From: Nitratiruptor sp. | Lineage (GTDB): Bacteria > Campylobacterota > Campylobacteria > Campylobacterales > Nitratiruptoraceae | Direction of reading: 5' to 3' | NCBI GenBank assembly: GCA_009659925.1 | Contig: PUXW01000016.1 | Span: 1-64,000 of the forward strand | Length of the DNA stretch: 64,000 nt | In this document: one piece after another, positions 5,379-52,600 of the stretch | How positions within the stretch are numbered: the first letter of the stretch is position 1 | Layout: each line of letters starts with the position of its first letter | Notes under the pieces: generated by a model | Databases searched by the model: none | What the model was told of the DNA's origin: nothing | The model's input: the letters and a program-made list of their open reading frames with translations, nothing else | Translations under genes and position numbers: made by a program

Positions 5379-5465
5379 GTGTTACTTTTTTACTCAAGGA
5401 AAAAGTTTTTCTTAGGAAAAATAGGACGATTATTAGAAATGTTAATGGCCCGTTAGCCAATCTCA

Positions 5466-5471: not shown

Positions 5472-5504
5472 ATTTTTCTATGAAAACTATCTCAAGGAGT
5501 CCAA

Positions 5505-7679: not shown

Positions 7680-7689
7680 TCCTCCCCTT
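7663..7689 (+). terminator. Hairpin over the stop codon of the nine-heme cytochrome gene
   Basis: AAGGGGAGGA and TCCTCCCCTT form a perfect 10-bp stem with a 7-base loop. The TGA stop (7677-7679) sits in the loop. No U-tract follows, so transcript-end stabilisation is as likely as termination. Confidence 0.5.
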
Positions 7690-7744
7690 GAGATGGAGCG
7701 GGGATTTTCGCTATCATTAGTAAAAAGTGAAGAAGGAGGAGACG

Positions 7745-27789: not shown

Positions 27790-27866
27790 CTTCCCTCTCC
27801 TTCCGAGCAACGGGGAGTAGGAAGATTGCAAAACTTCCCACTCCTCGCTCCTCAATCATACCATAA

Positions 27867-27888
27867 GCCGGACCCCGAAGGGGCCGGC
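27867..27888 (-). terminator. cUUCGg-capped hairpin between nirS and nirN
   Basis: On the minus strand GCCGG-CCCC-UUC-GGGG-U-CCGGC forms a 9-bp stem with one bulged U and a CUUCGG tetraloop, the most stable loop class. It starts 8 bases after the nirS stop. No U-tract follows, so RNA stabilisation of nirS or partial termination is expected. Confidence 0.65.
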
Positions 27889-27895
27889 ATGGCGA

Positions 27896-36319: not shown

Positions 36320-36787
36320 CTATCTCCCGATCGCTTTCGTTGGACAAACCCCAACACAAAAGCCACACCCAGTACACTTTTGGGCAATAATTTGGGGCTG
36401 AAAGAGTCCCGTAAACTCAATGGCCTGGTCCAAACAGGCATCCCGACAACTACTACAAATAGTCCCATGCCATGCCAAACAGCCTATAGGATCGATGGCA
36501 AGGGGTGGCAAGCTCCTCTTAGCATCGACCCGCAAGACCTGGAGAGGACAGGTAAGGGCACACTGATCGCAAAAGGTACACCCCGATTTAAAGAAGTCTA
36601 GAGAGGGCACCCCATCGACAATCTCAATTATACCCTCTTCACAGGCTTTCACACACGGGGTATCGTCACACTCCCTACACCTCTGGAAATCGGCCTCGTC
36701 GCTGAAGTAGGGGGGATAGGTGGGGAGCTGCCGCTCCTCTCCCCGCAGTAACTTGGCAAAAGAGGAGAAGAGCTCCCGACGCTCCAC
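36320..36787 (-). CDS. napF: Ferredoxin-type protein NapF
   Basis: 155 residues, starting with GTG in a TAGTG overlap with napB. Three cluster regions are visible (CRECDDTPCVKACEE, CTFCDQCALTCP and CTGCGFCVGVCPT), plus an additional Cys group CSSCRDACL. NapF is a cytoplasmic Fe-S protein that helps mature NapA. The size is typical. Confidence 0.9.
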   Translation of the reverse strand: MERRELFSSFAKLLRGEERQLPTYPPYFSDEADFQRCRECDDTPCVKACEEGIIEIVDGVPSLDFFKSGCTFCDQCALTCPLQVLRVDAKRSLPPLAIDPIGCLAWHGTICSSCRDACLDQAIEFTGLFQPQIIAQKCTGCGFCVGVCPTKAIGR

Positions 36788-37371
36788 TACTGGACCCCCT
36801 CCATGAGAGTCTGGTTGAGGTTGGAGCGATGTTTGGCGTTGGGATCCCGGTACTCGGGCTTGAAGGTATTTTCCACTAATGGCTTGGCATTGGCTTGAGG
36901 AACATGGCACTGGACGCAGTTGTAGCGTTGGGGAGCAATGTCCTCTTTCTTCGCTAGCTTGGCCAAACGGGCCTTGTAGACGGCTTCATCCTCGTAGAGC
37001 CCCTGTTTGATCAGCTTCTTCTTGGTGGAGAAGAAGAAATCTTTAAAGTGGGTAGGAGGCATTGGAGTTGCACCCATCGCTTCGGCTACACTTGGCATAT
37101 GGCAGCCTAGACAGGCGTTGTTTTGCAAGGTGATGGGTAGCATCCCTTCGATAGAGTGGGGGATGAGAGGAGGAGCGTTCTCATAACTGCGGGGGAGGCG
37201 CTGGGATGTTCCAGGAGCCGCTTTGGAATATTCCACCTTAGGAGGGGTCCCTCGATCGGAATATCCAAGTTCGCTCTCGTTAACCACTTGAGCCTTTTGC
37301 GCCGCTCCACATCCTGCAGCAAAGAGGATTGCCAGGGCAGCGGAAACTCCAAGAAAGCGCTTAAGATACAT
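36787..37371 (-). CDS. napB: Diheme cytochrome c NapB
   Basis: 194 residues with an N-terminal signal whose LFAAGC resembles a lipobox, so the protein may be membrane-anchored. Two heme sites, CLGCH and CVQCH, are each followed by the expected C-terminal spacing. NapB passes electrons to NapA in the periplasm. The start overlaps the napH end by 11 bases. Confidence 0.93.
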   Translation of the reverse strand: MYLKRFLGVSAALAILFAAGCGAAQKAQVVNESELGYSDRGTPPKVEYSKAAPGTSQRLPRSYENAPPLIPHSIEGMLPITLQNNACLGCHMPSVAEAMGATPMPPTHFKDFFFSTKKKLIKQGLYEDEAVYKARLAKLAKKEDIAPQRYNCVQCHVPQANAKPLVENTFKPEYRDPNAKHRSNLNQTLMEGVQ

Positions 37372-38191
37372 CTCTTGCTCCTTTGTCTAGAAAATCTCGC
37401 AGACGAAAATAGAGGGCATCATCGTCACACACCTCGACACAGCGGCCACAGAGGGTACACTCCCCCATCTTCACCTGCATACTCTTTTTCCCAACCATGA
37501 AGAGGACCTCTTTTTCAGGGCAGACCTCTTTACACCGCATACAAAGGGTGCAGTTGGGCTGGTTGTGCTCGACCCGCACCAGATTGAAGCGGCCAAGCAG
37601 GGAATAGAATCCCCCAAGTGGGCAGATATGGCCACACCACCCATTCTTGAGGATGAAAAGATCGAAGAGGAAGATGGCAACGATCATCGCCCAACCAAAG
37701 CCCATGCCAAAGATGATCCCCCGATGGGTTATGGAGACTGGGCTAACCATCTCAAAGGCCGCAGTCCCAAGGAGGAAGGAGAGGATGAAACTCAGCCCCA
37801 TCACCCAGTAGCGGATATTTCGGCTGGCCCACCATTTGCGCTCATATTTGTCCAAATTGAACTTACGACGCAAATAGTTGGCCCCATCGGTGACCATATT
37901 CACAGGACAGACCCAACTGCAAAAGGCCCGCCCCCCAACAATCCCATAAAAGAGGGCAATGATAAGGGCTCCGATGATGGCATCGGCGGCCACCATGGCA
38001 CCCGTGGCAAAAATTTGCAACAGGGCATAGGGGTCGGCCAAGGGGATGGTGCCAAAGAGCACGGAAGAGCTCAAATTGCCCTGCAAGACCTTCCAGCCAA
38101 GGTAGTTTCCTGCCAGATAGAGGGCGAGGATGGTCAATTGAGTGAGACGACGCAAAATCAAATAGCGATACTTCTTCCAGATCCTACTCAA
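37361..38191 (-). CDS. napH: Membrane quinol dehydrogenase component NapH
   Basis: 276 residues from a TTG that overlaps the napG stop by 8 bases (TTGAGTAG). No ATG or GTG gives a sensible N-terminus; the longer frame is antisense-like. Four membrane helices, two cytoplasmic CxxxCP motifs (CSWVCP, CGHICP) and two [4Fe-4S] motifs (CTLCMRCKEVCPE, CTLCGRCVEVCDD). NapH with NapG replaces NapC in Campylobacterota for menaquinol oxidation. Confidence 0.9.
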   Translation of the reverse strand: MSRIWKKYRYLILRRLTQLTILALYLAGNYLGWKVLQGNLSSSVLFGTIPLADPYALLQIFATGAMVAADAIIGALIIALFYGIVGGRAFCSWVCPVNMVTDGANYLRRKFNLDKYERKWWASRNIRYWVMGLSFILSFLLGTAAFEMVSPVSITHRGIIFGMGFGWAMIVAIFLFDLFILKNGWCGHICPLGGFYSLLGRFNLVRVEHNQPNCTLCMRCKEVCPEKEVLFMVGKKSMQVKMGECTLCGRCVEVCDDDALYFRLRDFLDKGARDVS

Positions 38192-38984
38192 AGTCGATCC
38201 CTTCGTTGAGTGAATCGACCGGGCTCTTTTGAGAGCGCGGTGTAACGGTCGTCTCGATTCCCTGGCTTCCATGGAGTCGTGCCTCGTCACTCTTCTCCCA
38301 CCCTTTGACATAGTGTTTACCAACCTTGCCCAACGCCACATCCCGGGGGAGGACCTTGATCGCGGCGATCTCGGTGACGCAAGCATGTTCACACAGACCG
38401 CATCCCGTACAATAGTCCGGATCGACGACGGGCAGGAGTTTGGCATGTTTTCCTGTCCGCTCGTTTTGGCGATACTCCATGTAGATCGCCTTGTCCAAGA
38501 GCGGGCAGGCGCGATAACAAGCATCGCACTGGATTCCCCAGTAGGCGATGCAATTTTTTATATCGACGATGGCCACCCCCATGCGCATCTTCGTGATGTC
38601 AAAGATCCGCTCTCCATCCTTGACCTCGGAGACGCTGTCAATATCGAGCGCACCCGTAGGGCAAGGTGGAACACAGGGAATATCGTCACACATGTAGCAG
38701 GGCACCTCCCTGGGAATGAAGTAGGGAGTCCCCAAGGGTTTGTGATCCCCTGGCTTGGCAAGCATGAGCGTGTCGTAGGGACAAGCTTCTACGCACAGCC
38801 CACACTTGATGCACAGGCTAATGAATTCATCCTCCTTGCGAGCCCCTGGAGGACGAAGGACCAGAGGCGCCGCCTTGGCCTCGTCCACATAGGCGCTCCA
38901 GAGCAGGGACCCAACGGTGGCGATCGCCACATTTTGGGCCATGGAGACGATGAATCGTCGCCTTCCCTCATCGGTTTTTGCCAT
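38184..38984 (-). CDS. napG: Ferredoxin-type periplasmic protein NapG
   Basis: 266 residues from an ATG after GGGGGAGGGGAG. A twin-arginine signal (GRRRFIVSMAQ) is followed by four [4Fe-4S] motifs (CIKCGLCVEACPYD, CYMCDDIPCVPPCP, CDACYRACPLL and CTGCGLCEHACV). It transfers electrons from NapH to NapB. Similar in architecture to NosG in this window. Confidence 0.92.
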   Translation of the reverse strand: MAKTDEGRRRFIVSMAQNVAIATVGSLLWSAYVDEAKAAPLVLRPPGARKEDEFISLCIKCGLCVEACPYDTLMLAKPGDHKPLGTPYFIPREVPCYMCDDIPCVPPCPTGALDIDSVSEVKDGERIFDITKMRMGVAIVDIKNCIAYWGIQCDACYRACPLLDKAIYMEYRQNERTGKHAKLLPVVDPDYCTGCGLCEHACVTEIAAIKVLPRDVALGKVGKHYVKGWEKSDEARLHGSQGIETTVTPRSQKSPVDSLNEGIDFE

Positions 38985-39002
38985 CTCCCCTCCCCCGGAC
39001 AC

Positions 39003-41813
39003 TTAGGCCTTGTAGATCTTGACAGCACACTTCTTGTAGTCTGTCTGCTTGGAAATTGGACAGGTAGCATCGAGGGTCACTTTGTTGATGTAGACCCGCT
39101 CATCGAACCAAGGTACGAAGACCAGACCGCGTGGTGGCCTGTTACGTCCTCGGGTCTCAACCCGGGCCTTCACCTTTCCTCGACGGCTCTCGATAACTAC
39201 CAAATCACCCCGTTTGACGCCTCGCTTCTTGGCATCTTCTGGATGCATGTAGCACAGTGCTTCTGGAACGGCTCGATAGAGCTCGGGAACCCGCATGGTC
39301 ATGGTACCGCTGTGCCAGTGCTCCAAGACCCGCCCAGTACACAGCCACATATCGTACTCGTTGTCTGGCATTTCAGGTGGCTCCATATAGGGGCGAGCGA
39401 AGATCTTCGCCTTGTTGGGCAGGTGGATCTTGGGCTTACTCTTGTCTGGGCCAGTCAGGCTACCTTGGGGGATGGTCTTAAGAGCATGTCCATAGAAGGC
39501 GAATTCACCCTTGACATGTCCCAGCTCTTTTTCACGCTTGGCGTATGGGTCGTAGTTGACGTTGAATCGCCATGGTGTATCTTTACCGTTGACCACTGGC
39601 CAGCGCAGACCCCGCACTTTGTGGTAGACATCGAAGGGCGCATAGTCGTGGGCCCGTCCGGCACCGAACTTGCGATACTCTTCCCACATCGCCTTTTGGA
39701 TGAAGAAGCCATACCCTTTCCATGGCTTGCCATCGGCGCCGATGACGTTTCGTTTGTCCCCTTCGGCCTCAGTGTTGGGGAAGCCTGCACCAATTGGATC
39801 TGGCCACTTGAAGCTCTTGTAATAGTCGTTGGCAAAGAGGACATCGTAGAGGGTGTCATCCGGACTATAGCCCATCTTCTTGGCCTCTTCGAGAACATCG
39901 GGCAATACCGTACCATCAGGCAGCTTATGCTCTTTCCAGACCTCTTTGAGCTTGAAGCGCTTGGAGAACTCTACATATTGCCACAAATCGGGCATCGCAT
40001 CACCTACAGGGGTGACTTGTTGTCGCCAATGCTGGGTTCGTCGCTCGGCGTTACCATAGGCACCCCACTTTTCGTAGATCATCGCACTTGGCAGGATGAG
40101 GTCTGCAACTTTGGCGCTGATACCTGGATATCCATCGCTGACCACGATGAAGTTGTCCATCGTTCGGGCCGCTTTGATCCAGTGGTTGGCGTTGGCGGTA
40201 TCTTGCCATGGGTTACATACATGGACCCAAGCGAATTTGATCTTTCCTTCCTCCAAGTCGCGCATGATCTTGACGATATGGCTTCCGACCTTGGGATTGA
40301 GGGTTCCCTTAGGCAGCTTCCAGATCTTTTCGCTGATGGCTCGGTGTTTGGGGTTGAAGACCACCATATCCGCAGGCAATCGGTGGGCAAAGGTACCAAC
40401 TTCCCGGGCCGTACCACATGCACTGGGCTGACCTGTGAGGGAGAAGGCTCCATCCCCGGGTTTGGCCTGTTTGCCAAGGAGGAAGTGGACCACATAGCTC
40501 AGCTCGTTGTCCCAGGTTCCCCGGGTGTGCTGGTTCATACCCATGGTCCAGAAGCTCACGACCTTGCGGCCCTTCTCCACGTAGAGATCCTTCAGCCGCT
40601 CAAGCTTGGCCTTGAAGCTCTCGAGACTCTCATCCGGATCTCCCTTGGCCAACTCCGCTACATAATCGAGGGTATAAGGCTCCAAGGACTTCTTGAAATC
40701 TTCGAAGCTGATGGCCCAATGTTTACCAGCCGCTTTGGCATGCTTCATCTTCATCACTTCGGTATTGCCATAGCCAAAGGGGGCGAGGGCTTTGCGCTCT
40801 GCTTCGCTGAGCCGCTTGTGATCCTGCTTCCAGATGGTTTGCATCTCCTTCTTGCTATAGCCCAGCTCCTCGGCCCGTTTGGGGTTGCGCATACCATAAC
40901 CGATGTCCGGATAACCCGTAGCGAAGACGGTGTACTCCTTGACGAAGTCCCAATCGATGGCATCTGGATGGTCGTAGACGATACTTCTGGCGATGTAGTT
41001 CCAAATAGCCAGGTCGGTGTTGGGCTTGAAGATGATCACATCATCGGCCAGGTCACAGCTTCGATGGGTGTAGGTAGACAAAACGACGACCTTGACCTTC
41101 TCGGGATTGGAGAGTTTGCGGTCTGTACAGCGGGCCCACAAAATCGGGTGCATCTCCGCCATGTTGGATCCCCACAAGACGATGGTATCGGTCAGCTCGA
41201 TGTCATCGTAACATCCAGCCGGCTCGTCGATACCAAAGGTCTGGATGAAACCGGCCACGGCACTTGCCATACAGTGGCGGGCGTTGGGGTCGATGTTGTT
41301 ACTGCGAAATCCAGCCTTCATCAACTTGGCCGCCGCATATCCCTCCATGATTGTATACTGACCAGATCCAAAGAAGGCCACCCCGGTTGGTCCCAGCTCG
41401 TTGTAGGCCTTCTTGAACTGTTTCTCCATCTCGTCGAAGGCCCGCTTCCAGCTGACCGGGCGGAATTTCCCCTTCTTGTCGAACTCACCCTTATCGTTCA
41501 TGCGAAGCAGGGGGGTTTTGAGGCGGTCGGCGCCATACATGATCTTGGCGGTAAAGTATCCCTTGATACAGTTGAGTCCCCGGTTGACTGGGGCAAGAGG
41601 GTCACCCTTGACGGCAACGATTCGATCGTCCTTGGTGGCGATCATGATCCCACATCCAGTCCCACAGAAGCGGCACACTGCCTTATCCCAGCGCCATCCC
41701 TTCTCGGCCTCCTTGCTAGCAGCCTCCATCTCCTTGGGAACGGAGAGGCCAACTGCACTTGCAGCCGCAGCTGCAGCCGTACTCTTGAGAAAGTCCCTTC
41801 TGCTTAGTGCCAT
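39003..41813 (-). CDS. napA: Periplasmic nitrate reductase catalytic subunit NapA
   Basis: Reduces nitrate to nitrite. 936 residues from an ATG after GAGGAGGCTTGC. Twin-arginine signal SRRDFLK (residues ~4-10) with a poly-Ala hydrophobic part; [4Fe-4S] motif CRFCGTGCG...GLNC (~residues 44-82); molybdenum-ligand Cys in ARHCMASAV; bis-MGD binding blocks follow. Length matches the Campylobacterota form. It is the first gene of napAGHBFLD plus the PAS gene, with a perfect FNR-type box upstream. Confidence 0.97.
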
Positions 41814-41891
41814 GCAAGCCTCCTCATAGTGATTGCTTTGAAACGACTCTTGCGACAACTCTATTTTACTTGGTTTCAGCGGAGCTAAACA

Positions 41892-41905
41892 TTGATATAA
41901 ATCAA
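41892..41905 (-). promoter_or_regulatory. Perfect FNR-type box for the nap operon
   Basis: TTGATATAAATCAA, centre 41898.5. On the minus strand TAAAAT (41863-41868) ends 35.5 bp from the centre. The napA ATG lies 50 bases beyond the -10. Confidence 0.8.
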
Positions 41906-41953
41906 ATTTAGATTTCCACGGCAAGGAAAAATTAAGAGAAAATTTGTCTCATT

Positions 41954-41967
41954 TTGATCCCTGTCAA
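41954..41967 (+). promoter_or_regulatory. FNR-type box for the FmdE-like gene
   Basis: TTGATCCCTGTCAA (one mismatch), centre 41960.5. On the plus strand TATGAT (41990-41995) ends 34.5 bp from the centre. It is 62 bases from the nap box, so the two divergent genes each have their own site. Confidence 0.72.
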
Positions 41968-42028: not shown

Positions 42029-42631
42029 ATGACCTATCCAGACTTTTTCGACCAGGTGGAACCCCTCTTGCTCTACGATCCCCTCGCCGACTTTCTCGGA
42101 GCCCTCGATGGGGGAGTCACCCAAATCACCTACCTCGATCTGGTCAAACTGGCCGGCCACTCATGTCCCACGGTAGCTGGAATCTACCTCATGGCTCGGA
42201 TCGGCCTAGAGCGACTCTTTCCCGACGCCATGCCCATTCGTGGCGAGATCGAAGTCCATATTCAAGGGGCCAAAGGGGAAGGGGTCAACGGAGTCATCGG
42301 CACTGGACTAGCCTATATTTGCGGTGTCAGTGACGAAGGAGGCTTCAAAGGGATTGGAGGCAGGTTCAACCGGGCAAACAAGCTCTTCTACCAGGCTCCC
42401 ATCTCGGGGGAAGTACGCTTGAAGCGATGCGATAGTGGCGCATCCATCGACTTGAGCTACGATCCCTCCGTCATCCCACCCAATCCCGAGATGAAAGAGC
42501 TCCTGGCCAAACTCCAAAGTGGCCACGCCACCATCGATGATCGGAGGGCCTTCCAGAAGCTCTGGCAGGAGCGGGTAGCCAAAATCCTCCTCTCAAAGGA
42601 GCTCTGGCCCCAGATGGTCACGATCCTTTGA
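42029..42631 (+). CDS. FmdE-like protein in the denitrification regulon
   Basis: 200 residues after AATTGAGGAGGCACC. The segment LAGHSCPTVAGIYLMARI (~residues 42-59) resembles the GHxCPG motif of FmdE-family proteins, which bind a metal and are linked to molybdenum enzymes. Other features are a Gly-rich middle and a helical C-terminus; no signal peptide. It diverges from napA and has its own FNR-type box, so a role with nitrate reductase or NO handling is inferred. Family assignment is moderate. Confidence 0.65.
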   Translation: MTYPDFFDQVEPLLLYDPLADFLGALDGGVTQITYLDLVKLAGHSCPTVAGIYLMARIGLERLFPDAMPIRGEIEVHIQGAKGEGVNGVIGTGLAYICGVSDEGGFKGIGGRFNRANKLFYQAPISGEVRLKRCDSGASIDLSYDPSVIPPNPEMKELLAKLQSGHATIDDRRAFQKLWQERVAKILLSKELWPQMVTIL

Positions 42632-43124
42632 GGATGTAGGTGTGATATAAATCGGGACCCCGGGCTTGGCTATAGACCTGGTGGCCCCGCTTGGCCATCT
42701 CCTCGATGAGGGGTTCGGGACGAAAGTCGCTTACGAGTAGGAGGAGCTCGCCAGGTTCCATCCCCTTGAGAGCTCTATTGACATGGGCCAAGGGATTTTC
42801 CCCTCGATCGAGGAGCTCGTTAGCGTTGAGGGTCAATACGGGACTCCCCTCGATCCAAGGTGGGGCTGGCTCTTCTTCCTCTCGGGAGCCTCTTTCTACC
42901 AACGGTGGCTGCCCAACCCGCTCCCGCAAGAGGTTGACCAGCTCCAGGGGATCCATCCCGCCAACTCGAGCTGCCTGCTGGATAGAGGCTATCTTGGTAA
43001 TGGTTCGGCGTAGAATCGGATTCTTGAGCCGCTTGAACTTGGGATTGATGCGAATAAGCTCCTCTTCGAGGAAGGGATAGGCTTTGAGGAGGTCGTAAAT
43101 TTTTGTCTCCAGAGTTATCTCCAT
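42618..43124 (-). CDS. DUF1858 plus DUF2249-like protein
   Basis: 168 residues from an ATG overlapping the upstream stop. The N-terminal ~65 residues match a DUF1858-type pattern (TKIYDLLKAYPFLEEELIRI...PILRRTI); an acidic linker follows; the C-terminal ~75 residues resemble a DUF2249/TusA-like fold (NANELLDRGENPLAHV, RGHQVYSQARGPD). Such pairs accompany hemerythrin and NO-stress genes elsewhere (family knowledge). Last gene of the five-gene operon starting at 45238. The 3' end overlaps the convergent FmdE-like gene by 14 bases. Confidence 0.72.
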   Translation of the reverse strand: MEITLETKIYDLLKAYPFLEEELIRINPKFKRLKNPILRRTITKIASIQQAARVGGMDPLELVNLLRERVGQPPLVERGSREEEEPAPPWIEGSPVLTLNANELLDRGENPLAHVNRALKGMEPGELLLLVSDFRPEPLIEEMAKRGHQVYSQARGPDLYHTYILKGS

Positions 43125-43345
43125 AATCGCTCTCCCCGTCTCCAGCGTCGCAAAAGGAGGATGAGATCCTTGAGGATCAGTGCAACAGACCAGACCCAGA
43201 GGATATCCATGTAAATATTGCGTCGATAGCCGTAAAAGGTGTAAAGAATCGGCAAACCGATGGCGATTGGCCACTTGAAATAGTAGAAGAAGAGGATTCC
43301 AGCGCCCCAGAGGTGGCGTAGTTCTCGTTTGAGACTATCCCGCAC
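43115..43345 (-). CDS. Small two-TM membrane protein in the DUF2249 operon
   Basis: 76 residues from a GTG (a TTG one codon earlier is possible) overlapping the DUF59 gene by 11 bases. Two hydrophobic segments (~15-35 and 48-64) with flanking Arg/Lys. Unrecognised; overlapping frames on both sides show it is translated as part of the operon. Confidence 0.65.
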   Translation of the reverse strand: MRDSLKRELRHLWGAGILFFYYFKWPIAIGLPILYTFYGYRRNIYMDILWVWSVALILKDLILLLRRWRRGERLWR

Positions 43346-43643
43346 CAAGGGCCTTTTTCACAACATCGCTCGCCATCGAGATATTCCATGGAGGATCCCA
43401 GACGATCTCTACATCCACATTGCCAACCCCAGGGAGCCGCTCCACCGCTTCCTTGACCCACTGCTCCATCATCTGGTGGAGGGGGCAGCCTCGGGTCGAG
43501 AGGGTCATGCGGACCTTCACATTGTTCTCCTCATCCACATCGACCCCATAAATGAGCCCCATGTCCACCAGATTGAAACCAACCTCCGGATCGATCACCG
43601 TCCGGATGGCATCGTAGACTTGATCTTGAGTGATTGTTGCCAT
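43335..43643 (-). CDS. DUF59 / MIP18-family protein (SufT/PaaD-like)
   Basis: 102 residues. VYDAIRTVIDPEVGFNLVDMGLIYGVDV and STRGCPLHQMM are hallmark MIP18 motifs, with the conserved Cys in RGCPL. These small proteins assist Fe-S cluster or metal-centre assembly. The ATG overlaps the stop of the 12-TM gene (TGATG). In this operon it may mature a metal site of a neighbouring protein. Confidence 0.9.
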   Translation of the reverse strand: MATITQDQVYDAIRTVIDPEVGFNLVDMGLIYGVDVDEENNVKVRMTLSTRGCPLHQMMEQWVKEAVERLPGVGNVDVEIVWDPPWNISMASDVVKKALGAG

Positions 43644-44881
43644 CAAACCTCCTTGAAGGCCAACATAAATCGCAAAGATGTGGCCAAAAAGATCGCCCCG
43701 ACAAAGAGGAAGCTCCCTCCCGCCCGAAGGAGGGTATCACTGCCCGTTACGATCCCGAGCCAGACCAGAATAGCTCCGACAAGGCTGAGCCAGAACTCCA
43801 TTTGAGCCTGCTTCTTGGGATACATCTCATGGAGCATGGGAACCCTCTTCTTCCCAACAAGGGGGCTGAAGCGGTGGAACCAGACGAGGAAAGGGACGAT
43901 TTTGTAGAGGTGGCCATTGATCAAGAAGGCGAAGAAGCTAAAGAGAGCCCAGAAGAGCCCGTAGAGGAAGGTCCTCTCCCCACCGCTGAGTAGATAGAGC
44001 CACCCTTGCACTATGGCTAGAGCGAAGAAGCCATATCCGGCTACCATAGATTGGAACCAGATCTCCCACTCCTTCCTGGCCCGCTGGCGGTAGATCAGGT
44101 AGACTTGGTAGAAGTAGAAGAGGGCGGCCCCCAAGCTCCCCATGAAGGCGAGGATCGTCAAAAAGTCCCACTCCAGCAAAGCTGCTACGATCCCTAGAAC
44201 CACCGAAGCCACCATGGTATTGATCCCATATTCCAGGGGCCACGTCCCAAAGCCGTGGGCTAAGCCGAACATGGGCAACAAGACGATACTGATTCCAAAG
44301 ATGGTGATCATTACATAGCCCCCAATCACGGCGAAGAGGTGGAGCTGGAGCATCCCATCCAAATCGAGGGACCAGAACCCTCCGAGACCCAAAGCCATGA
44401 GAAAACCACTCAAAACTCCAACCAGCAAGAAGATATTGGCAAGCCGAACGGCCTTAGTTGTGAGGGAGCGGTGACTACTCTTGGCGATAGTCAAAAAGAC
44501 CTCGGTGGCGAAGATGACCATCGCAGCAAGGACCAGCAGACCGCCAAAGGGCAAGAGGGGGGGAGCCATCCAGAAGCCGACCACAAGTCCTATGGTCCCC
44601 AGAAAGAGGAGGGGGAAGATGAGGTAGTACCAATCTACGCTGAAGTGCCCCTCCTCCACCACGACCGGGACTAGCTGGGCCATAGCCCCGAAGATGATGG
44701 TCATTACATAGCCTACCAGGAAGAGGTGGACCCAACCGGCGATATCTAGTTGGGCATGGTGGAAGGTGGCAGAATAGAAGAGGAGGGCCCCCATCGCCAC
44801 GAGGTAGCAGAAGATTCCAGCTACGAAGAAGGGGACGATCAAGGAAAAAGGGGGAGCGAACTCCTTGGAGATGGACAGCAT
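43643..44881 (-). CDS. 12-TM heme-copper-oxidase-like or NnrS-like membrane protein
   Basis: 412 residues with about 12 membrane helices. His-bearing helices recall heme-copper subunit I or NnrS proteins: GWVHLFLVGYVMTIIFGAM, LQLHLFAVIGGYVMITIFG and NGHLYKIVPFLVWFHRFSP. Subunit I proteins normally have more than 450 residues and six metal-ligand His; the full set is not obvious here. The RBS is AAGGAGGGGCG. Control by the FNR-type box at 45300 suggests a role in NO or nitrite metabolism. Confidence 0.7.
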   Translation of the reverse strand: MLSISKEFAPPFSLIVPFFVAGIFCYLVAMGALLFYSATFHHAQLDIAGWVHLFLVGYVMTIIFGAMAQLVPVVVEEGHFSVDWYYLIFPLLFLGTIGLVVGFWMAPPLLPFGGLLVLAAMVIFATEVFLTIAKSSHRSLTTKAVRLANIFLLVGVLSGFLMALGLGGFWSLDLDGMLQLHLFAVIGGYVMITIFGISIVLLPMFGLAHGFGTWPLEYGINTMVASVVLGIVAALLEWDFLTILAFMGSLGAALFYFYQVYLIYRQRARKEWEIWFQSMVAGYGFFALAIVQGWLYLLSGGERTFLYGLFWALFSFFAFLINGHLYKIVPFLVWFHRFSPLVGKKRVPMLHEMYPKKQAQMEFWLSLVGAILVWLGIVTGSDTLLRAGGSFLFVGAIFLATSLRFMLAFKEV

Positions 44882-44890
44882 CGCCCCTCC

Positions 44891-45238
44891 TTAGCCGTGG
44901 CAACGGTTATCGCTCAAATCGGCCTTTTCACTGGCTCCAGGCTTATAGCCAAAGATGAGCATCACCCGTCCGTCAGGCAACTCTTCCTTGAGGATCTCGT
45001 AGTTGTCACCGATCTTGTTCAAAAGCCCCATGGGCATTTTGTGGTTGATCATGATCAACTTCGTATTGGGGTCGGTGACCAGTTTGAGCCCAGCCATGGC
45101 GTTGACCATTGGCTCTGGCGGGCCACAGCGGGAAGTATCGAAGGCGTAGTAGGTCGTCCCATCTTGAGTGAACTTTTTGAATTCGACACTCGCCCCCTCG
45201 ACGGGAACGACCTGGGCATCTTGGGGAATCGTCACCAT
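44891..45238 (-). CDS. DUF2249-family protein heading the FNR-controlled operon
   Basis: 115 residues from the ATG after TTGGAGGTCTGCC. Upstream in-frame starts would include the promoter and are rejected. RCGPPEPMVNAMAGL, then MINHKMPMGLLNKI and the C-terminal VMLIFGYK fit DUF2249 (TusA-like, sulfur- or redox-related). The C-terminus ends in CHG, which could bind metal. First gene of a five-gene operon. Confidence 0.78.
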   Translation of the reverse strand: MVTIPQDAQVVPVEGASVEFKKFTQDGTTYYAFDTSRCGPPEPMVNAMAGLKLVTDPNTKLIMINHKMPMGLLNKIGDNYEILKEELPDGRVMLIFGYKPGASEKADLSDNRCHG

Positions 45239-45299
45239 GGCAGACCTCCAATTGGGATAATTTTTCTCCCAATTGTAGGCCAATGTCATGGCTGTGTCA

Positions 45300-45313
45300 T
45301 TGACATATATCAA
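45300..45313 (-). promoter_or_regulatory. FNR-type box for the DUF2249 operon
   Basis: TTGACATATATCAA (one mismatch), centre 45306.5. On the minus strand TACAAT (45272-45277) ends 34.5 bp from the centre. It overlaps the stop codon of the preceding ferredoxin gene. Confidence 0.75.
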
Positions 45314-46344
45314 GACTCTTCCCTGGCCAGTTTGAAAATATCGCCAAACTCCTCTACGAACCCCTTGCACCTGGCACAAATGGGATCCCCCTTGAAGGCG
45401 AAGGGGGTCTTGCACTCACGGCAGATGGCGATGGTGTGTTCTACCAACTCCCGCCCCCTGTTGTGGGCCCAGGCGACGAGATCCACCTCCTCCTGGGGCC
45501 CCAGGGCATCGCTCTTGCATACCTGGCTACAGATCCCACATCCAATACAAGCTCCATCGACGAACCAGATCGCCCGTCCATCTTTGGCGCTCACCAAGGC
45601 TTGGGTCGGGCAAAACTGGATACACTCCCCACAATTATCACACCGCCTTTCATCGATAGCCCAGGAAGCCAGGAAGGAGAAAGTGGTAGGAAGCCGTTTC
45701 TTGGGCAGATGGGGAAGGTGGGAGCGGACCCACTCTTTCAAGAGGGTGGTGCTGGGAGGAATCCCCTCCTCCCTTGGAGGGCACTCTTGAGGAGTCACCT
45801 TTTCAAAAATCGCTTTGAAGAAACGGCGTCTGGAAGGCTGGGGCTGGTAGGCCCGCTCTTTCATTCGACGCTCGATCCCTAAGGCTGCTACGAATCTTTC
45901 CGCCTCCTGGATGCGCCCTCTGATCGATTGAAGGGTCGCTCCTTCTGGATTGAGGGGACATGCCTCACAATGGCTCAAATCGCAAGCGACCTCCTGGCTC
46001 TCCAGGAGCAAGGCGGCAAAGTGTTGGGGGCGAAAGAGGCTCAAACAGGGAATATCCCGTTTACACGAAAGCTCCACCTCTTCGACCCCCTTCCACTTGG
46101 CAACATAGGCATTTGGGTCGAAGAAGGGTAGCTCCAGGGCTTCGCTTGGACACCCCCCAACGCAGACGCCACACCCACTACACGCCTCCAGCCGAAGGCT
46201 CAAGCGCCCCCGATCCAGGAAGAAGGCCCCTTCAGGGCACAGATCCACACAGGCTTGACAGGAGTTGTGGAAGTGGGCACTGCGCAAGCAGGCGAGCCGA
46301 TCGAAGCGAAACCGCTCCCCCTCCATGCGGTATTCAAGAGCCAT
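45310..46344 (-). CDS. Multi-cluster ferredoxin-like protein of the molybdoenzyme operon
   Basis: 344 residues from an ATG after GGGAGGAGTGTGCG, overlapping the TorD-like gene by 11 bases. N-terminal pair of [4Fe-4S] motifs (CQACVDLCPE, CSGCGVCVGGCP), a further Cys group CDLSHCEACPL, a second C-terminal pair (CDNCGECIQFCP, CIGCGICSQVCK) and a zinc-ribbon-like CRECKTPF...CARCKG. No signal peptide, so cytoplasmic. It may donate electrons or clusters during cofactor assembly, or serve as a redox partner. Not named in known type II enzyme operons I recognise. Confidence 0.8.
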   Translation of the reverse strand: MALEYRMEGERFRFDRLACLRSAHFHNSCQACVDLCPEGAFFLDRGRLSLRLEACSGCGVCVGGCPSEALELPFFDPNAYVAKWKGVEEVELSCKRDIPCLSLFRPQHFAALLLESQEVACDLSHCEACPLNPEGATLQSIRGRIQEAERFVAALGIERRMKERAYQPQPSRRRFFKAIFEKVTPQECPPREEGIPPSTTLLKEWVRSHLPHLPKKRLPTTFSFLASWAIDERRCDNCGECIQFCPTQALVSAKDGRAIWFVDGACIGCGICSQVCKSDALGPQEEVDLVAWAHNRGRELVEHTIAICRECKTPFAFKGDPICARCKGFVEEFGDIFKLAREES

Positions 46345-46918
46345 CGCACACTCCTCCCAGATGGCTGTACTCATTGAAGAGAAAATCGATGGTGAAATCG
46401 CATACATCTTGGTAGAAAGGAGTTTGGGCCACGCTTCCCATAGCTAGCAGGTATGGCGGAACCCACTGGAGTAGATGCTCCCTCAAGAAGCGACAGGCCA
46501 CCAGATCCTCCTGGCGATAGGCGAGATTTTGCATGAAGCCGAACTCGATGGCCAGGTGATCCGGAGCAAGGAGGTGGGTCCGGTTCATATCGATCTCATA
46601 GCCGTGCTCGAAGTAGAAGAACATAACCGGGTTTTGCAGCCCGACGAGGATCTCCCGGGTCGAATCGAGTACGAGGGTTTCAACTGGTTGGGAGTTGACA
46701 ATGAAAAGGGAGCTGAAATCGATATTGAGCTCTTCCTCCAACCGCTCTGGAGGAACCTCCTGGAAGTAGCGGTAGGCCTTGGGGCCAATGGTTTCTAGGA
46801 GCTCTTCGCGATGGAGCAGATCCTCAATCTCCCTTGCTCCCAAAGGCTTTTCAAAGAGGCGAGAGAGAAAGGCGTAGACGAAGGCTCGGGCTTTGTGATC
46901 CAACGACAATCCTTCCAC
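46334..46918 (-). CDS. TorD/DmsD-family chaperone for the molybdoenzyme
   Basis: 194 residues, all-helical, with GTG start. YFEHGYEIDMNRTHLLAPDHLAIEF resembles the TorD-family ExxxxPDH segment. Such chaperones hold the Tat signal and help insert the molybdenum cofactor into the catalytic subunit (encoded at 49691). The RBS is weak, and a hairpin covers the region just upstream (46921-46941). Confidence 0.85.
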   Translation of the reverse strand: MEGLSLDHKARAFVYAFLSRLFEKPLGAREIEDLLHREELLETIGPKAYRYFQEVPPERLEEELNIDFSSLFIVNSQPVETLVLDSTREILVGLQNPVMFFYFEHGYEIDMNRTHLLAPDHLAIEFGFMQNLAYRQEDLVACRFLREHLLQWVPPYLLAMGSVAQTPFYQDVCDFTIDFLFNEYSHLGGVCDGS

Positions 46919-46920
46919 GA

Positions 46921-46941
46921 GGTGCCTCGATTAGAGGCACC
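46921..46941 (-). other. Intercistronic hairpin before the TorD-like gene
   Basis: GGTGCCTC-N5-GAGGCACC is a perfect 8-bp stem whose loop includes the stop codon of the upstream gene. It ends 2 bases before the GTG start of the chaperone gene, so it could limit chaperone translation. Confidence 0.5.
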
Positions 46942-47344
46942 CTTTGAAGAAGGATTTCTTGGGAGGTGGGGGGGCTTTGAACTCACTCGCTTCGATGGTC
47001 TTTCCATCTCGGGCCAGCTTCCCGATGATGGTCACCTCGTTCCGGTTGGCAGCCTTTTCCAGGAGCTCGCTCACATGGACTCCAGCCGGTTTGACATAGT
47101 AGTAGGTACCCTCGTCATGGACGTAGAGGACCAGGCGCATCTTCTCCGGTTCCCCAGGAAGCCAGTTGCGATAGCACCCCTCCTCACCACAATGATAGCT
47201 CTCCAATCGGCAATCGGCGAAAAGGTCGTTTTGAACACACCACTCGGTCGTCAAGAACCCCTTCTTCTCGAACTCTCCCTTCTCAGCGCCACCGCTGGCC
47301 AACAGGAATCCAGCGGCCAGCAGGCTCACGACCAAGGCTTTCAT
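46931..47344 (-). CDS. Secreted Cys-rich protein of the molybdoenzyme operon
   Basis: 137 residues, ATG in a TGATG overlap with the gamma-subunit gene. Signal peptide (~1-18). Mature N-terminal part has four Cys (EWCVQNDLFADC, YHCGEEGCYRNW) and a fifth near the C-terminal end (KGCL). The C-terminal half looks like a beta-rich domain. No heme motif. Unrecognised; a periplasmic assembly or electron-transfer role with the enzyme is inferred. Confidence 0.7.
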   Translation of the reverse strand: MKALVVSLLAAGFLLASGGAEKGEFEKKGFLTTEWCVQNDLFADCRLESYHCGEEGCYRNWLPGEPEKMRLVLYVHDEGTYYYVKPAGVHVSELLEKAANRNEVTIIGKLARDGKTIEASEFKAPPPPKKSFFKGCL

Positions 47345-48552
47345 CACTCCACCTCCGCTTTTTGAGTCTGCAAGTAGGCTACGATATCCTCCACCGTCTT
47401 CTTATCCAGGTAGTTGAAGGGGGGCATCGTCGAAGTCCGGTTCCCCTTCTCATCCACCATGTACCAGGAGAAGTTGGGGTGGGCGTTGCGGTTGTATCCG
47501 GGAACCACCACCGCGTTGGGATCGAGAATCGACTCACGCAAATAGGCGGCTGTCGTCTGACCTCCGATGTTCTCCAAGCCTGGAGCCATGTAGAGCGGGG
47601 CATTTTGGAAGTCCCTGGTTCGGTGGCAGCTGGCGCAGTTGGTTTCAAACTGCTGCTTTCCGTTAGCCAGATCCCCTTTGACTACCTCGTTGACCACCCG
47701 CTCAAGGGCTTTATGCTTGCCTCCGGGAAGACGAACGGCAATCCAGCTTGAGAGCCGCTTGAGACCGTCCCGATCCAACTCCTTGCCATCCCAAACGGCG
47801 ATGGCGATGGCAAACTCACCCTTCGTCGGAGCGGCATACTCATCCTCGATGGGGCGAATTACAGTTCCACCCCACATGCCACCTCGCTTGCGCACATAGT
47901 GCATGTCGGTGCGATAGGTGGCCGAACCATCCTTGATCTGGGTCATAGAGCGGAAGCCCTCGCCGACGAAGGCGCGCTGGTAGATGCTCGCCCCCCGTTT
48001 GGCCACCTCTTTGTTAAATTGCTCCACCTCTTTGCCAAAGTAGGGGAGGTTGTGGGGATTGACCTGGTAGAAGACCTCGCCATTGCCATTGGGCTCGTAG
48101 ACTACATCGTAGGCCTTACGCAAATAGATGGCTACGGGACGTCCGTCACTGCCCATGCCGATGTAGGGGAGCTTTTCCGGCTCTTTGGCGGAACTGGCAA
48201 ACTGAACAGCGAAACCGTCGGCATAAAGATCGCTCTTGTAGCCCTTGTAGACATCCTTGCTCTTATCGGGCCAACGCACGACGATAGCGATCTCCTTCCC
48301 ATCGGTGAGGGCCCCTACTTCGACGATCTTCCCCTTCGCATCCTTATGGAGCTCTAGAGCCCGCTTGTCGTTGAGTTTAATGGTGCTTTGAGGGTAGACG
48401 GCGACAGGGGTCCACTTGATCCGTTTCACCAGCTTGGTCCCACAGCGAAAATCCTTGAGGGAGGCTACCTTGACAGCTTGGACCACATTCCCAGCCAGAC
48501 TCACCGAAGCGGCCAGACTCAAGGCCGCCATCATCAATCCTACTCCTCTCAT
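47344..48552 (-). CDS. Type II DMSO-reductase gamma subunit fused to cytochrome c
   Basis: 402 residues. Signal peptide (~1-20); residues ~40-290 match an ethylbenzene-dehydrogenase-type heme b domain (EbdC/SerC/DdhC family, with VVRWPD and FAIAIAVWDG); residues ~295-400 are a cytochrome c domain with CASCH (306-310) and a likely distal Met in TSTMPPF. Usual gamma subunits of about 210-240 residues lack the cytochrome. The fusion would give the enzyme its own b-to-c heme exit in the periplasm. Confidence 0.85.
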   Translation of the reverse strand: MRGVGLMMAALSLAASVSLAGNVVQAVKVASLKDFRCGTKLVKRIKWTPVAVYPQSTIKLNDKRALELHKDAKGKIVEVGALTDGKEIAIVVRWPDKSKDVYKGYKSDLYADGFAVQFASSAKEPEKLPYIGMGSDGRPVAIYLRKAYDVVYEPNGNGEVFYQVNPHNLPYFGKEVEQFNKEVAKRGASIYQRAFVGEGFRSMTQIKDGSATYRTDMHYVRKRGGMWGGTVIRPIEDEYAAPTKGEFAIAIAVWDGKELDRDGLKRLSSWIAVRLPGGKHKALERVVNEVVKGDLANGKQQFETNCASCHRTRDFQNAPLYMAPGLENIGGQTTAAYLRESILDPNAVVVPGYNRNAHPNFSWYMVDEKGNRTSTMPPFNYLDKKTVEDIVAYLQTQKAEVE

Positions 48553-49676
48553 GCGTGCACCTTAAAGTGGGTTAGTGAAGATGGTTTGGTGTACTTCCCA
48601 GCCACATAGCGCTCATCCACCAGTGGCAACGGCTTCATTCCCTTCTCCTTGGCCACTTGGACATAGTAGTTGTGATCGAGGCGGAACATATCCTTGTGCT
48701 GGTAGGCGATGAGGATATCCATCAGCTCGCTCTCACCTGTTTCGGCCCGCTTTTTTCGCTCCTGGCGAAGGGTCTTGATGGCATCGTGGACCGCAGGACC
48801 GAAGAGCTTCTCGAGCTCTTCCATTGGGATTCGGTTGCTCCCTTCGATAATGCGTCCCTGGGCATCGAACTTGGGTGGAGCATCAACTGGAGGGATGTAG
48901 TAGACATTGGGCTGGGTGCCATAATCTGGCCGCAGTGGGAGGGCCACCTTGTACTTGTGGACCAGCTTGTAGACCTGTCCCTCCTCATCATCGAGGAAGC
49001 CAACGAATCGGATCCGTCCCACACAGCTTTGAGCGCAAGCTGGAGGGAGCCCCTGCTCGATTCGAGGGAAGCAGAGGATACACTTCTCGCTCTTGGAGAT
49101 CTTGGGGTTGAAGTAGATCTTCTTGTAGGGACACCCAGCGATGCAGTAGCGATACCCTTGACAGCGGTCCAGATCCACCAGGACCACCCCATCTTCCTCC
49201 CGCTTGAAGATGGCGTCCCGAGGACAAGCGCTCAAACAGCCCGGATTGGTGCAGTGGTTACAGATTCGGGGGAGGTAGAAGAAGTAGTTGTCCATGGGGA
49301 ACTCCCCAGCCCCCTCGTCCTCATCCCAGTTGGGACCCCAAGTGGGGGATTGGTCGGGGCGAATTCCTGGAGTTGGATCCCCATCGATGAGGTTCTGCTC
49401 GGCCAGGGAGTCGTAGTTGTAATCCCACGGTACCCCGTAATCCGACTCGATATTGGGGATGATGCCAGGCTTCAAATCCCCGGCGGCATCGAAACCGCCG
49501 CCCAGCTCCATCCAGTTCTTGGGGTATCCTTTGCCTGGATAGGTCTCCACATTGTTCCAGTACATGTACTCTCGGCCATTCCTGTTGGTCCACTGGGTCT
49601 TACAGGCAACCGTACAGGTTTGGCATCCGATACATTTGTTCAGATCCATCACCATCGCAAGTTGTCGTTTGGACAT
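48549..49676 (-). CDS. Type II DMSO-reductase beta subunit (SerB/PcrB/EbdB-like)
   Basis: 375 residues with four Cys groups: CIGCQTCTVAC at the N-terminus, CNHCTNPGCLSACP, CQGYRYCIAGCP and CILCFPRIEQGLPPACAQSC. The one Tyr-containing site is consistent with three [4Fe-4S] and one [3Fe-4S] cluster as in this family. The segment TNRNGREYMYWNNVE is characteristic of the selenate/perchlorate/ethylbenzene group rather than NarH. No signal; it would be co-exported with alpha. It starts 14 bases after the alpha stop. Confidence 0.92.
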   Translation of the reverse strand: MSKRQLAMVMDLNKCIGCQTCTVACKTQWTNRNGREYMYWNNVETYPGKGYPKNWMELGGGFDAAGDLKPGIIPNIESDYGVPWDYNYDSLAEQNLIDGDPTPGIRPDQSPTWGPNWDEDEGAGEFPMDNYFFYLPRICNHCTNPGCLSACPRDAIFKREEDGVVLVDLDRCQGYRYCIAGCPYKKIYFNPKISKSEKCILCFPRIEQGLPPACAQSCVGRIRFVGFLDDEEGQVYKLVHKYKVALPLRPDYGTQPNVYYIPPVDAPPKFDAQGRIIEGSNRIPMEELEKLFGPAVHDAIKTLRQERKKRAETGESELMDILIAYQHKDMFRLDHNYYVQVAKEKGMKPLPLVDERYVAGKYTKPSSLTHFKVHA

Positions 49677-49690
49677 TCCACTCTCCTCAA

Positions 49691-52591
49691 TCAGTATGTG
49701 AACTTGGTCGACTTCTCGATATCGACGGCCCCGTCATAAGCGTACTGGTTTCCGTCCCACAGACCGCCGAACTTCAGATGGCCCCACCCATCGGCAAGCT
49801 CCAGGAGGTTGAGGGCCGTTGGGACACACTCGTTGTGCCCTTTGTTGAAGAGGTATTGGTAGGGCTCCCAACCGTGCTCCATGACCAGGGTATCAGGAGC
49901 TACCGAAGAGCTCACCTTGGCCATGGCGTAGAACTCTCCCAGATCGTTGAAGATTCGAACTGTATCGCCATCCTTGATCCCCTTCATCTGGGCGATTTTG
50001 CGGTTGATGGCTACATAGGGAACTCCCCGCTGGAGGCGCTGGAGGGTACGGGAGGTCTTCCAGTTGGAGTGGATCGACCAGCGGGCGTGGGGTGTCATAA
50101 GCATGAAGGGGTTCTTCTTGTTCTGAGGTGCGATGGGTTTGAGGGCGTAGTTGGTTCCATTGACCAGCTTGAGGTAGGTGGGATGGTCGACATAAAAAGT
50201 CTGGCGCCCCGTCAAGGTCTCGAAAGGCTCCAGTTTGAAGAGGACGAACTCCCCTGAGTTATAGGGCCGATCGGCATAGAGGGGACTCATCTTGGCAGCC
50301 TTTTCGTTGAGCTGGAGGAATCCCCCTGCCTTGTACATCTTCTCCATAGTCCAGGGCTGGTACTGATCCGTCTTCTCCAGGGCCGCTTGCACAGCAAGCT
50401 TATCGGTTCCCAAGTAGGGTTCCATCGCAGCTTCCGACTCTTCGTCGGTGTTGGTGTACTCTTTGTAGAAGTTCGCCAGGTCTCGGTACCCGGTGCGGGT
50501 GTACTTCTTGCTGTCTGGTACCTTGGCTTTGGCTTTATTTTCTGGTCGGTTGGCGATCTCTTCGAGCTTCTTGGCCAAGAAGGCAAAGAGGCTCCACTCG
50601 TCCTTAGCCTCTCCGACCGGTTTGAGGTTGGCCATCGGCTGAGCCAAGTTGGTGAAGCGGTGGTATCCGGGGCTGGTTCGAATGTCATAGACCTCGTAGT
50701 GGGACTTGGCCGGCAAGAGGACATCGGCGAACATCGCCGCCTCGCTCATCTTATAGTCGACATAGGCGAAGAACTTGGTCTTTTTCAAGAAGGCCTTGCG
50801 ATACTCGCTCCCCTTATTGCGGCGGAATTTGGAATCGGCGACAATAATGGCCACCTCGGGGGTCCACCAAGGCTTGTAGTAGAGGCTCTCTTCCTCTGGA
50901 TCCTTGCCATCTTCTCCACTCTTGAGGGCCTCTTCGACGATCTTGATGTACTCCTCTTTGGAAATCTTGCCCCCATGGGCCCGTTTCACATCCTCGTTGG
51001 AGAAATACTCCTTAAAGGTCTTGAGCCCGTCGCCAAAGACAAACTCCCCGACGAATCCCGAACCGAAGCGGGGTTTATACTTGCCACCAAAGCCGCTGAG
51101 AGCTCCCAACCCGCTCAGGTTGAACTCGTTCTCAGTGTTGAGACCACCATAGGGCCCAAGGCGTCCTGTCAAGCCACAAATGGAGGCGATGTTCCAGATA
51201 TTGAGGATTCCGTTGAAGTACTTGTTGAGGCTGAAGCCCGTCGTAATCTCTACCACTTTGGGAAGGGCGATCTCTCTAGCCAAAAGGCGAACCGTATCGG
51301 GATGGACCCCTGTGATCTCTTGGGTCTGCTCGGGAGCGAACTGGGCCACATTCTGCTTGAGCTTCTCGAAGACGGTTGTGACCTTGACCCGCTTGCCATC
51401 TTTGAGGGTCACCTCCCAACTGCCCTCGAGCTCGGGATCGATGCCAAACTCCTTGATGTTGAGGGTCTTGTGTTCACTGCCATGGCTTCCTGGCATGAGG
51501 GCGATCTTGCCGCTCTTCTTGTTCATCACATAGAATTGGGCTTCGTAGTGTTCTCGCTCCTCTTCTTTGTGGGGCTCTTCCAAGTCGATGCGGCGCAAGA
51601 GTTTGCCATTGTCCTCCCGGACCAGGAATGGCAAATCGGTGTAGATCTTCATAAAGCCCGGCTTGTACCATTTGTTCTTGATAATTTCGTGCATGACACT
51701 CATGGCCAAGAACTGATCGGTTCCGGGCTTGATCGGAATCCACAAGTCGGCAGATTTAGCAGAGGCATTGAATTCGGGAGTAATGACGATGATCTTGGCT
51801 CCGTTGTATTTTCCTTCCCAGACGAAGTGGGCATCTGGAATTCGGGAGACGCTGGGATTGGCTCCCCAGAAGACGGCAGTATCGACCTGGTACATGAAGT
51901 CGTAGGTACATCCGACGTTCCCCTCGCCATAGGCCACCGCTGCACCGCTGAACATATCCCCGAGGTAGGAGGCGGGGTAGATGCGATAGGCTCCAAGCTG
52001 GGTGGAAAAGCGCAGCGGTGCCCCTCGGCGCCCTTCGGTCAAGAGTCCCGTTCCAGCATGGACCATGAGCCGACTTGGCCCCTTCTTGGGATCGGTCATC
52101 ACCTCCCAGATCTTCTGGGCTACAATCTCGGCAGCCTCATCCCAGCTAATCCGTTTCCACTTTCCTTCGCCCCGTTTGCCAACCCGCTTCATCGGATAGA
52201 GGATCCGATCCTTCTCGTACATGACTTGGGAGTGCTGGATCCCCTTGTTACATCCCCGGGGGTTGAAGTCGGGAATCTTCGGGTTGATTCGAGGATATCT
52301 GGCCGATTGGTTCTCCCGGGTTACAACCCCATTGTTCCCCCAAATCTCCCAGGCACAGTTCCCCTGGCAGTTGACACAGTGATAGGCGTAGCCGTGCTCC
52401 TCCTTCTTCCCGTAGGTGAAACCAAACTCGTTGCGGTACATCTGTTCGGTGTAGGTGGTGTTGGGATAGTTCTCCTTCCCATTCTCCACCTTCACAACCT
52501 CGGTTTTGGCAAAGAGAGATCCTTGGCTCGCCACGAGGGCCGCCGTGGCTCCTGAAATTTTGAGAAAGTCTCGGCGCTTCATGGTGCTCAT
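49691..52591 (-). CDS. Tat-exported type II DMSO-reductase-family catalytic subunit, substrate unknown
   Basis: 966 residues from an ATG after AAGGAGCGAAG. Twin-arginine signal KRRDFLKIS. The FS0 cluster motif is H71-x3-C75-x3-C79-x34-C114, the His-type pattern of type II enzymes (nitrate, selenate, perchlorate, DMS, ethylbenzene). The expected molybdenum-ligand Asp is in YLGDMFSG (D212). Gene order alpha-beta-gamma-(Cys protein)-TorD is like selenate or chlorate reductases, but the rhodanese and ferredoxin neighbours are not. The substrate cannot be named from sequence. Confidence 0.88.
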   Translation of the reverse strand: MSTMKRRDFLKISGATAALVASQGSLFAKTEVVKVENGKENYPNTTYTEQMYRNEFGFTYGKKEEHGYAYHCVNCQGNCAWEIWGNNGVVTRENQSARYPRINPKIPDFNPRGCNKGIQHSQVMYEKDRILYPMKRVGKRGEGKWKRISWDEAAEIVAQKIWEVMTDPKKGPSRLMVHAGTGLLTEGRRGAPLRFSTQLGAYRIYPASYLGDMFSGAAVAYGEGNVGCTYDFMYQVDTAVFWGANPSVSRIPDAHFVWEGKYNGAKIIVITPEFNASAKSADLWIPIKPGTDQFLAMSVMHEIIKNKWYKPGFMKIYTDLPFLVREDNGKLLRRIDLEEPHKEEEREHYEAQFYVMNKKSGKIALMPGSHGSEHKTLNIKEFGIDPELEGSWEVTLKDGKRVKVTTVFEKLKQNVAQFAPEQTQEITGVHPDTVRLLAREIALPKVVEITTGFSLNKYFNGILNIWNIASICGLTGRLGPYGGLNTENEFNLSGLGALSGFGGKYKPRFGSGFVGEFVFGDGLKTFKEYFSNEDVKRAHGGKISKEEYIKIVEEALKSGEDGKDPEEESLYYKPWWTPEVAIIVADSKFRRNKGSEYRKAFLKKTKFFAYVDYKMSEAAMFADVLLPAKSHYEVYDIRTSPGYHRFTNLAQPMANLKPVGEAKDEWSLFAFLAKKLEEIANRPENKAKAKVPDSKKYTRTGYRDLANFYKEYTNTDEESEAAMEPYLGTDKLAVQAALEKTDQYQPWTMEKMYKAGGFLQLNEKAAKMSPLYADRPYNSGEFVLFKLEPFETLTGRQTFYVDHPTYLKLVNGTNYALKPIAPQNKKNPFMLMTPHARWSIHSNWKTSRTLQRLQRGVPYVAINRKIAQMKGIKDGDTVRIFNDLGEFYAMAKVSSSVAPDTLVMEHGWEPYQYLFNKGHNECVPTALNLLELADGWGHLKFGGLWDGNQYAYDGAVDIEKSTKFTY

Positions 52592-52600
52592 CTTCGCTCC

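Follow-up and report, generated by a model that had tools for sequence, protein, structure and literature searches.

We analyzed a 64,000-nucleotide stretch of the Nitratiruptor sp. contig PUXW01000016.1 (assembly GCA_009659925.1; hereafter, the window) and examined a five-gene operon, A to E (42618–45238), which forms part of a nap-nor-nir-nos denitrification island in the 1.44 Mb host genome, whose closest named kin are Nitratiruptor and other Campylobacterales. Its central gene encodes a membrane protein, B, with a heme-copper oxidase (HCO) fold that has lost the ligands of the catalytic binuclear centre, and the neighbouring genes encode a putative iron–sulfur (Fe-S) assembly protein (C) and two proteins related to the DUF2249/TusA group (A and E). 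Related sets occur among nitrate and nitrite respiration genes of very distant microbes, and the operon therefore probably belongs to a common, uncharacterised machinery with which cells make or protect the metal enzymes of denitrification. More specifically, we assign a probability of about 0.45 to a role as an accessory complex for the maturation or protection of denitrification metalloenzymes in the presence of nitric oxide (NO).

The open reading frame coordinates confirmed that the five genes overlap or nearly touch, as a preliminary description of this DNA had stated. A and B are separated by 9 nt, B/C, C/D, and D/E overlap, and the start codon of D is TTG. The FNR-type box and the TACAAT −10 element placed at the operon start in the same description were also verified. 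The box, TTGATATATGTCAA, is centred at −41.5 from the start predicted from TACAAT, which is the spacing of class II activation. Of 121 related loci, 103 carry a TTGA-N6-TCAA motif 5' of gene A, versus 0.9 expected from shuffled sequences, indicating a recurrence far beyond chance; many of these loci are from kin genomes and a few are counted twice under two names, so that not all are independent. The motif mostly lies 50–90 nt from the start of gene A, with constant half-sites and variable bases between them. Other FNR-type boxes in the island are located at 41892–41967, 34486, and 32334, a pair of them close to the starts of napA and the divergent FmdE-like gene.

The AlphaFold2 model of B, generated with a 61-sequence alignment, contained the 12 helices counted earlier from the sequence (predicted local distance difference test score (pLDDT) 92.4, pTM 0.91). 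Searching the PDB with the sequence of B returned nothing useful, and the fold search alone worked. In a Foldseek comparison with the PDB, the top 49 matches were all HCOs, and among the matches listed, every one with E <0.001 was the catalytic subunit of an HCO or an NO reductase. The TM-scores were 0.75–0.76 to the cbb3-type subunit CcoN and 0.65 to cNOR. The fold search thus bore out the suggested resemblance to heme-copper subunit I. The window copy of B has no Pfam match itself, and 10 of 26 B homologues matched Pfam COX1 (best 7e-8). The 12 transmembrane (TM) helices are arranged in three homologous 4-TM units (unit 1 vs unit 2, E 4e-8; unit 1 vs unit 3, E 1e-6), consistent with the HCO fold. 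Whole-length hhalign comparisons of B with NnrS, NorB, and CcoN were not significant; the informative comparison was that of a single unit, in which unit 1 matched HCO TM1–4 at E 1e-7 and H52 was aligned with the TM2 His of NorB. This NorB His is a ligand of the low-spin heme.

Catalytic HCOs and NO reductases employ six His ligands, located in TM2, TM6, the His-His of TM7, and the His-x-His of TM10. Of these six, only the TM2 and TM6 residues have a match in B. H52 (TM2), H181 (TM6), and H324 (TM10) are invariant in the Campylobacterales alignment, and the TM2 and TM6 His are the only ones kept when the proteins from Thermus, Sinorhizobium, Gemmobacter, and Haloferax are included. Neither the alignment nor the repeat comparison revealed a conserved His-His, or any conserved His, in TM7. 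TM10 has no His-x-His, and its His occupies the opposite end of the helix in the repeat alignment. A bis-His low-spin heme site formed by TM2 and TM10, which we had considered intact, was dropped on the basis of this placement. Thus, B shares its fold and TM1–4 profile with CcoN and NorB, but the absence of the TM7 and TM10 motifs indicates that the catalytic binuclear centre is missing, and the proposal that B itself acts catalytically on NO or nitrite was not sustained. The remaining pair naturally suggests a single heme between the TM2 and TM6 His. The topology is N-in/C-in, with Lys/Arg values of 13.8 on the side of the termini and 0.7 on the other side. This distribution of positive charge would place the His pair near the outer face and the conserved residues E76, H209, H324, and K327 toward the cytoplasm.

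Together, these features make B a probable heme-binding pseudo-oxidase of the HCO-homology (HCOH) kind, related to NnrS. Pei et al. (2014, Protein Sci 23:1220) reportedly described the HCOH group, which includes NnrS, as 12-TM proteins with three 4-TM units and two universally conserved His. B shares these traits, the two His being kept across four phyla, as well as the HCO fold and the denitrification context. It differs in the Pfam NnrS family (PF05940), which matched none of the 26 B homologues, and in the hhalign result given above. The host genome encodes a paralogue on another contig, a second 12-TM protein whose gene follows those for a hemerythrin and a DUF2249-like protein. This paralogue scores above the Pfam NnrS cut-off (31.6 bits vs 28), and hhalign shows homology between its family and B (E 2e-49). 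The paralogue therefore ties B to the NnrS kind, and the previously noted NnrS likeness holds through this homology, but not through the profile or Pfam results of B itself. NnrS guards cellular iron against dinitrosyl complexes without removing NO (PMC9246220). According to PMC11218638, links between HCO-homology families and DUF2249 were reported in 2014; the same paper records the induction of DUF2249 proteins during haloarchaeal denitrification.

The DUF2249 proteins proposed to flank B were recovered in part. E matches Pfam DUF1858 (5.3e-17) and DUF2249 (3.1e-9). The window copy of A misses Pfam DUF2249, though 38 of 50 aligned copies match it at E <1 (best 4.6e-6) and the fold is SirA/TusA-like: the AlphaFold2 model of A (pLDDT 92), which begins with a beta hairpin and ends in a Cys-His-Gly tail, matched the SirA-like structure 3hz7 with a probability of 1.00 and a target TM-score of 0.73, but an E-value of only 0.04. 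C, as anticipated, belongs to a metal-assembly family, with a Pfam DUF59/FeS_assembly_P match of 8.7e-21 (74.4 bits vs a cut-off of 23.5). DUF59 proteins function in Fe-S assembly. C has in common with the DUF59/SufT/PaaD proteins the domain and a Cys, Cys54, which is invariant in 12 sequences from three phyla; it differs from them as a dedicated operon copy that scores under the NCBIfam equivalog cut-offs. D has no Pfam match. The FmdE-like gene scores 22.2 bits vs the FmdE cut-off of 22.9, with one orthologue above it. Of 44 loci, 21 have this gene close to B: it is convergent in some, as in the window, and in other families directly follows C on the same strand. It is a sixth conserved gene that belongs to the set.

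Across 44 B-type neighbourhoods, A was present in 43 and C in 41, while the lineage-restricted D occurred in 14 and E in 14. In a second set, 68 public loci that had enough flanking sequence and partly came from the same genomes, A directly preceded B in all 68 and C directly followed it in 63. Since A and C nearly always flank B, we consider A-B-C, which is nearly invariant in Campylobacterales, to be the core; D and E are mostly confined to the family of the window and a few others.

We then counted B, at a best E of at most 1e-36, in the window genome and 149 relatives, and found it in 82. B was carried by 62 of 64 genomes with a true nirS vs 20 of 86 without nirS (Fisher 1e-21, with relatives that are not independent), and at the genus level by 18 of 19 nirS genera vs 10 of 40 others (p 4e-7). 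Its link to nosZ was weaker than that to nirS, and its link to napA weaker still. In all 14 large-contig genomes compared, B and nirS were 13–34 kb apart. The expected co-conservation with nir/nor genes was therefore present. The two nirS genomes without B are both from one genus.

Related modules were also detected in other phyla. Sinorhizobium sp. B11 and Rhizobium phaseoli both have, in this order, nor genes, hemN, DUF2249, 12-TM, DUF2249, DUF59, NnrS, nirK, SUMF1-type (nirV-like), and Crp/Fnr. Gemmobacter has 12-TM, DUF2249, and DUF59 genes ahead of NnrS and nirK, and in Haloferax the 12-TM gene adjoins a multicopper oxidase gene, with genes for a cbb3-type subunit I, halocyanin, and DUF2249 proteins nearby. 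The profile homology of B was E 4e-39 to the Thermus proteins and 4e-19 to those of Sinorhizobium.

In Thermus, the block consists of DUF2249 (drpA), drpB, 4-TM COX1-like, protoglobin, 12-TM, and DUF59 genes, located after nar in one plasmid, and intact but away from nar in two others. Our drpA/drpB assignment rests on the position after nar, the size (273 aa), and the domains, as in PMC6282519. Homologues of B, C, and E are thus all contained in one block, with identities to the window proteins of 32% (B), 42% (C), and 34% (E; BLASTP to DrpB over 164 aa, E 1e-30). The Thermus locus differs in adding the 4-TM COX1-like protein and the protoglobin, and its DrpA, a short DUF2249 protein, has no clear counterpart in the window operon. 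E consists of DUF1858 and one DUF2249, whereas DrpB has DUF1858 and two DUF2249 domains. The third domain of DrpB, missing from E, resembles A (E 1e-4), and A and E therefore look like a split DrpB; this assignment was preferred to that of A as a DrpA orthologue, which was rejected. At 6765–8041 of the Thermus stretch examined, the block includes the 4-TM protein, which matches only TM9–12 of COX1, and the protoglobin, which carries a ThiS-like tail. C of the Thermus block is almost the same protein as TTHB138 of T. thermophilus HB8, of which a crystal structure is available (PDB 2CU6). In HB8 (5001–5551 of a separate HB8 stretch), the DUF59 gene TTHB138 is kept, the neighbouring 12-TM gene is unannotated, and the remaining block is absent from the annotation.

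We propose that an FNR/DNR-type regulator would switch the operon on during nitrogen-oxide respiration. B, a pseudo-oxidase lacking a binuclear catalytic centre, probably holds a single heme via the TM2 and TM6 His near the periplasmic face, and its positively charged cytoplasmic face may dock the soluble proteins A, E, and C. A and E would act as TusA-fold/DUF2249 partners, together resembling the Thermus DrpB, and C may serve as an Fe-S/metal insertion factor using its conserved Cys. Such a complex would maintain the metal centres of nitrate/nitrite respiration, including Fe-S centres, in assembled form, or repair or protect them, during NO formation, as NnrS protects iron.

Maturation or protection is the best single explanation because a dedicated DUF59 Fe-S factor nearly always adjoins B, and because Thermus drpA and drpB double mutants contain near-normal amounts of NarG with little nitrate reductase activity (PMC6282519). 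The authors of that study mention a maturation effect beside the proposed nitrate sensing (PMC6282519). By analogy, the phenotype would favour B and its helpers serving other enzymes over the helpers assembling B. Several observations weigh against this explanation. The Thermus authors interpret drpAB mainly as a nitrate sensor (PMC6282519). Moreover, about 20 genomes, mainly from lineages with Nap and most of them also without cNorB, carry B without nirS, and hence B does not strictly depend on a nitrite reductase that produces NO. The Cys of A is not invariant, which disfavours a persulfide transfer function, and A as a persulfide carrier was rejected for this reason.

Signalling and direct NO handling are serious rivals. 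In the former, B would be a membrane receptor for heme and NO, or for nitrate/nitrite, and the DUF2249/DUF1858 proteins would relay what it senses to FNR-type regulators, a mechanism already proposed for DrpA/DrpB. The homology of E to DrpB, the nitrate-independent nar expression caused by drpAB deletion (PMC6282519), and the Crp/FNR genes near the module in 13 B loci all speak for such a relay. Most loci have no adjacent regulator, however, and neither the nearly constant DUF59 factor nor the low enzyme activity at a normal protein level in the drpAB mutants is explained, and we consider signalling possible but somewhat improbable. The alternative in which B handles NO chemically, as a reductase, a scavenger, or a handler of NO and iron-nitrosyls like NnrS, with A, C, and E as its maturation factors, corresponds to the assembly line of the preliminary description and draws on the HCO fold with its similarity to NO reductases, the paralogue that passes the NnrS cut-off and is encoded beside a hemerythrin, and the protoglobin of the Thermus module. 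Without the TM7 and TM10 motifs, B has no known NO-reducing centre, and its profile comparison with NnrS was not significant; we regard this alternative as unlikely.

The loss of the catalytic ligands, the TusA-like partner, and the conserved E76, H209, H324, and K327 toward the cytoplasmic side would also be compatible with a transporter or channel for nitrite, iron, or sulfur species that reuses the HCO fold and works with a soluble partner, similar to thiosulfate uptake systems. The TM2/TM6 His pair is kept across phyla, however, and no transporter family or fold was matched by Pfam or Foldseek, including the unrelated transporter family that the preliminary description had named as a possible outcome. 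A transport function is thus very unlikely.

The positions of the operon, its promoter elements, and the other members of the island are listed below.

Positions of the operon and island features in the window
Feature	Position	Strand	Remarks
FNR/DNR-type box	45300-45313	-	overlaps the stop codon of the upstream ferredoxin-like gene
−10 element TACAAT	45272-45277	-	from sequence
Gene A	44891-45238	-	115 aa; TusA/SirA-fold, DUF2249-like
Gene B	43643-44881	-	412 aa; 12-TM, HCO fold
Gene C	43335-43646	-	DUF59/FeS_assembly_P
Gene D	43115-43348	-	77 aa; small membrane protein
Gene E	42618-43124	-	DUF1858-DUF2249
FmdE-like gene	42029-42631	+	convergent with operon A-E
nap genes	about 36787-41924		between cNorB and operon A-E
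cNorB	29829-31295		island member
nirS, cd1-type	27914-29131		second cd1-like gene adjoining
nosZ	20939-22741		island member

The cd1-type genes form an adjacent pair (26113–29551, minus strand), one a strong nirS match and the other a weaker second copy, an arrangement kept in many relatives. Beyond the operon, 46334–53725 (minus strand) contains genes for a type II molybdoenzyme of the dimethyl sulfoxide reductase family (alpha, Fe-S beta, heme-b/cytochrome c gamma, and a NarJ-like chaperone), accompanied by a rhodanese-like protein gene and, farther along, soxA and soxB.

The operon had been called undescribed, which applies only in part. E and C are homologous to DrpB and TTHB138, HCO-homology families linked to DUF2249 were reported in 2014, and COG4309/DUF2249 genes were linked to nor genes in 2005, with co-transcription in rhizobia and membership in NnrR/NsrR regulons; the accessible part of that report notes a single gene and not a module (Rodionov 2005, PMC1274295). 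In the papers searched, the whole set is apparently undescribed as one module. In the literature searched, mostly without subscription papers, no paper connecting DUF2249 to either DUF59 or NnrS was found, and the module as a unit, the DrpB link, and the HCO-fold core therefore appear undescribed in that literature.

Denitrification is among the best-studied respiratory pathways, yet the members of this regulated, gene-order-conserved module are unannotated or carry DUF names. The module accompanies nearly all nirS Campylobacterales as well as rhizobial and Thermus clusters, and it joins three separate reports, on the DUF2249-nor association, Thermus DrpAB, and the HCO-homology proteins, into one testable unit. 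The results suggest reinterpreting the DrpAB 'nitrate sensor' phenotype in terms of a complex that matures or protects enzymes, to which DrpAB would belong. A bolder and decidedly improbable version is a cross-phylum repair complex, in which the heme-bearing membrane pseudo-oxidase would sense or take up NO (or electrons) at its outer face and drive cytoplasmic Fe-S/metal re-insertion by the DUF59 and TusA-fold partners. If so, this complex would keep the denitrification enzymes active in their own NO, and the Thermus DrpAB would be part of the same machine.

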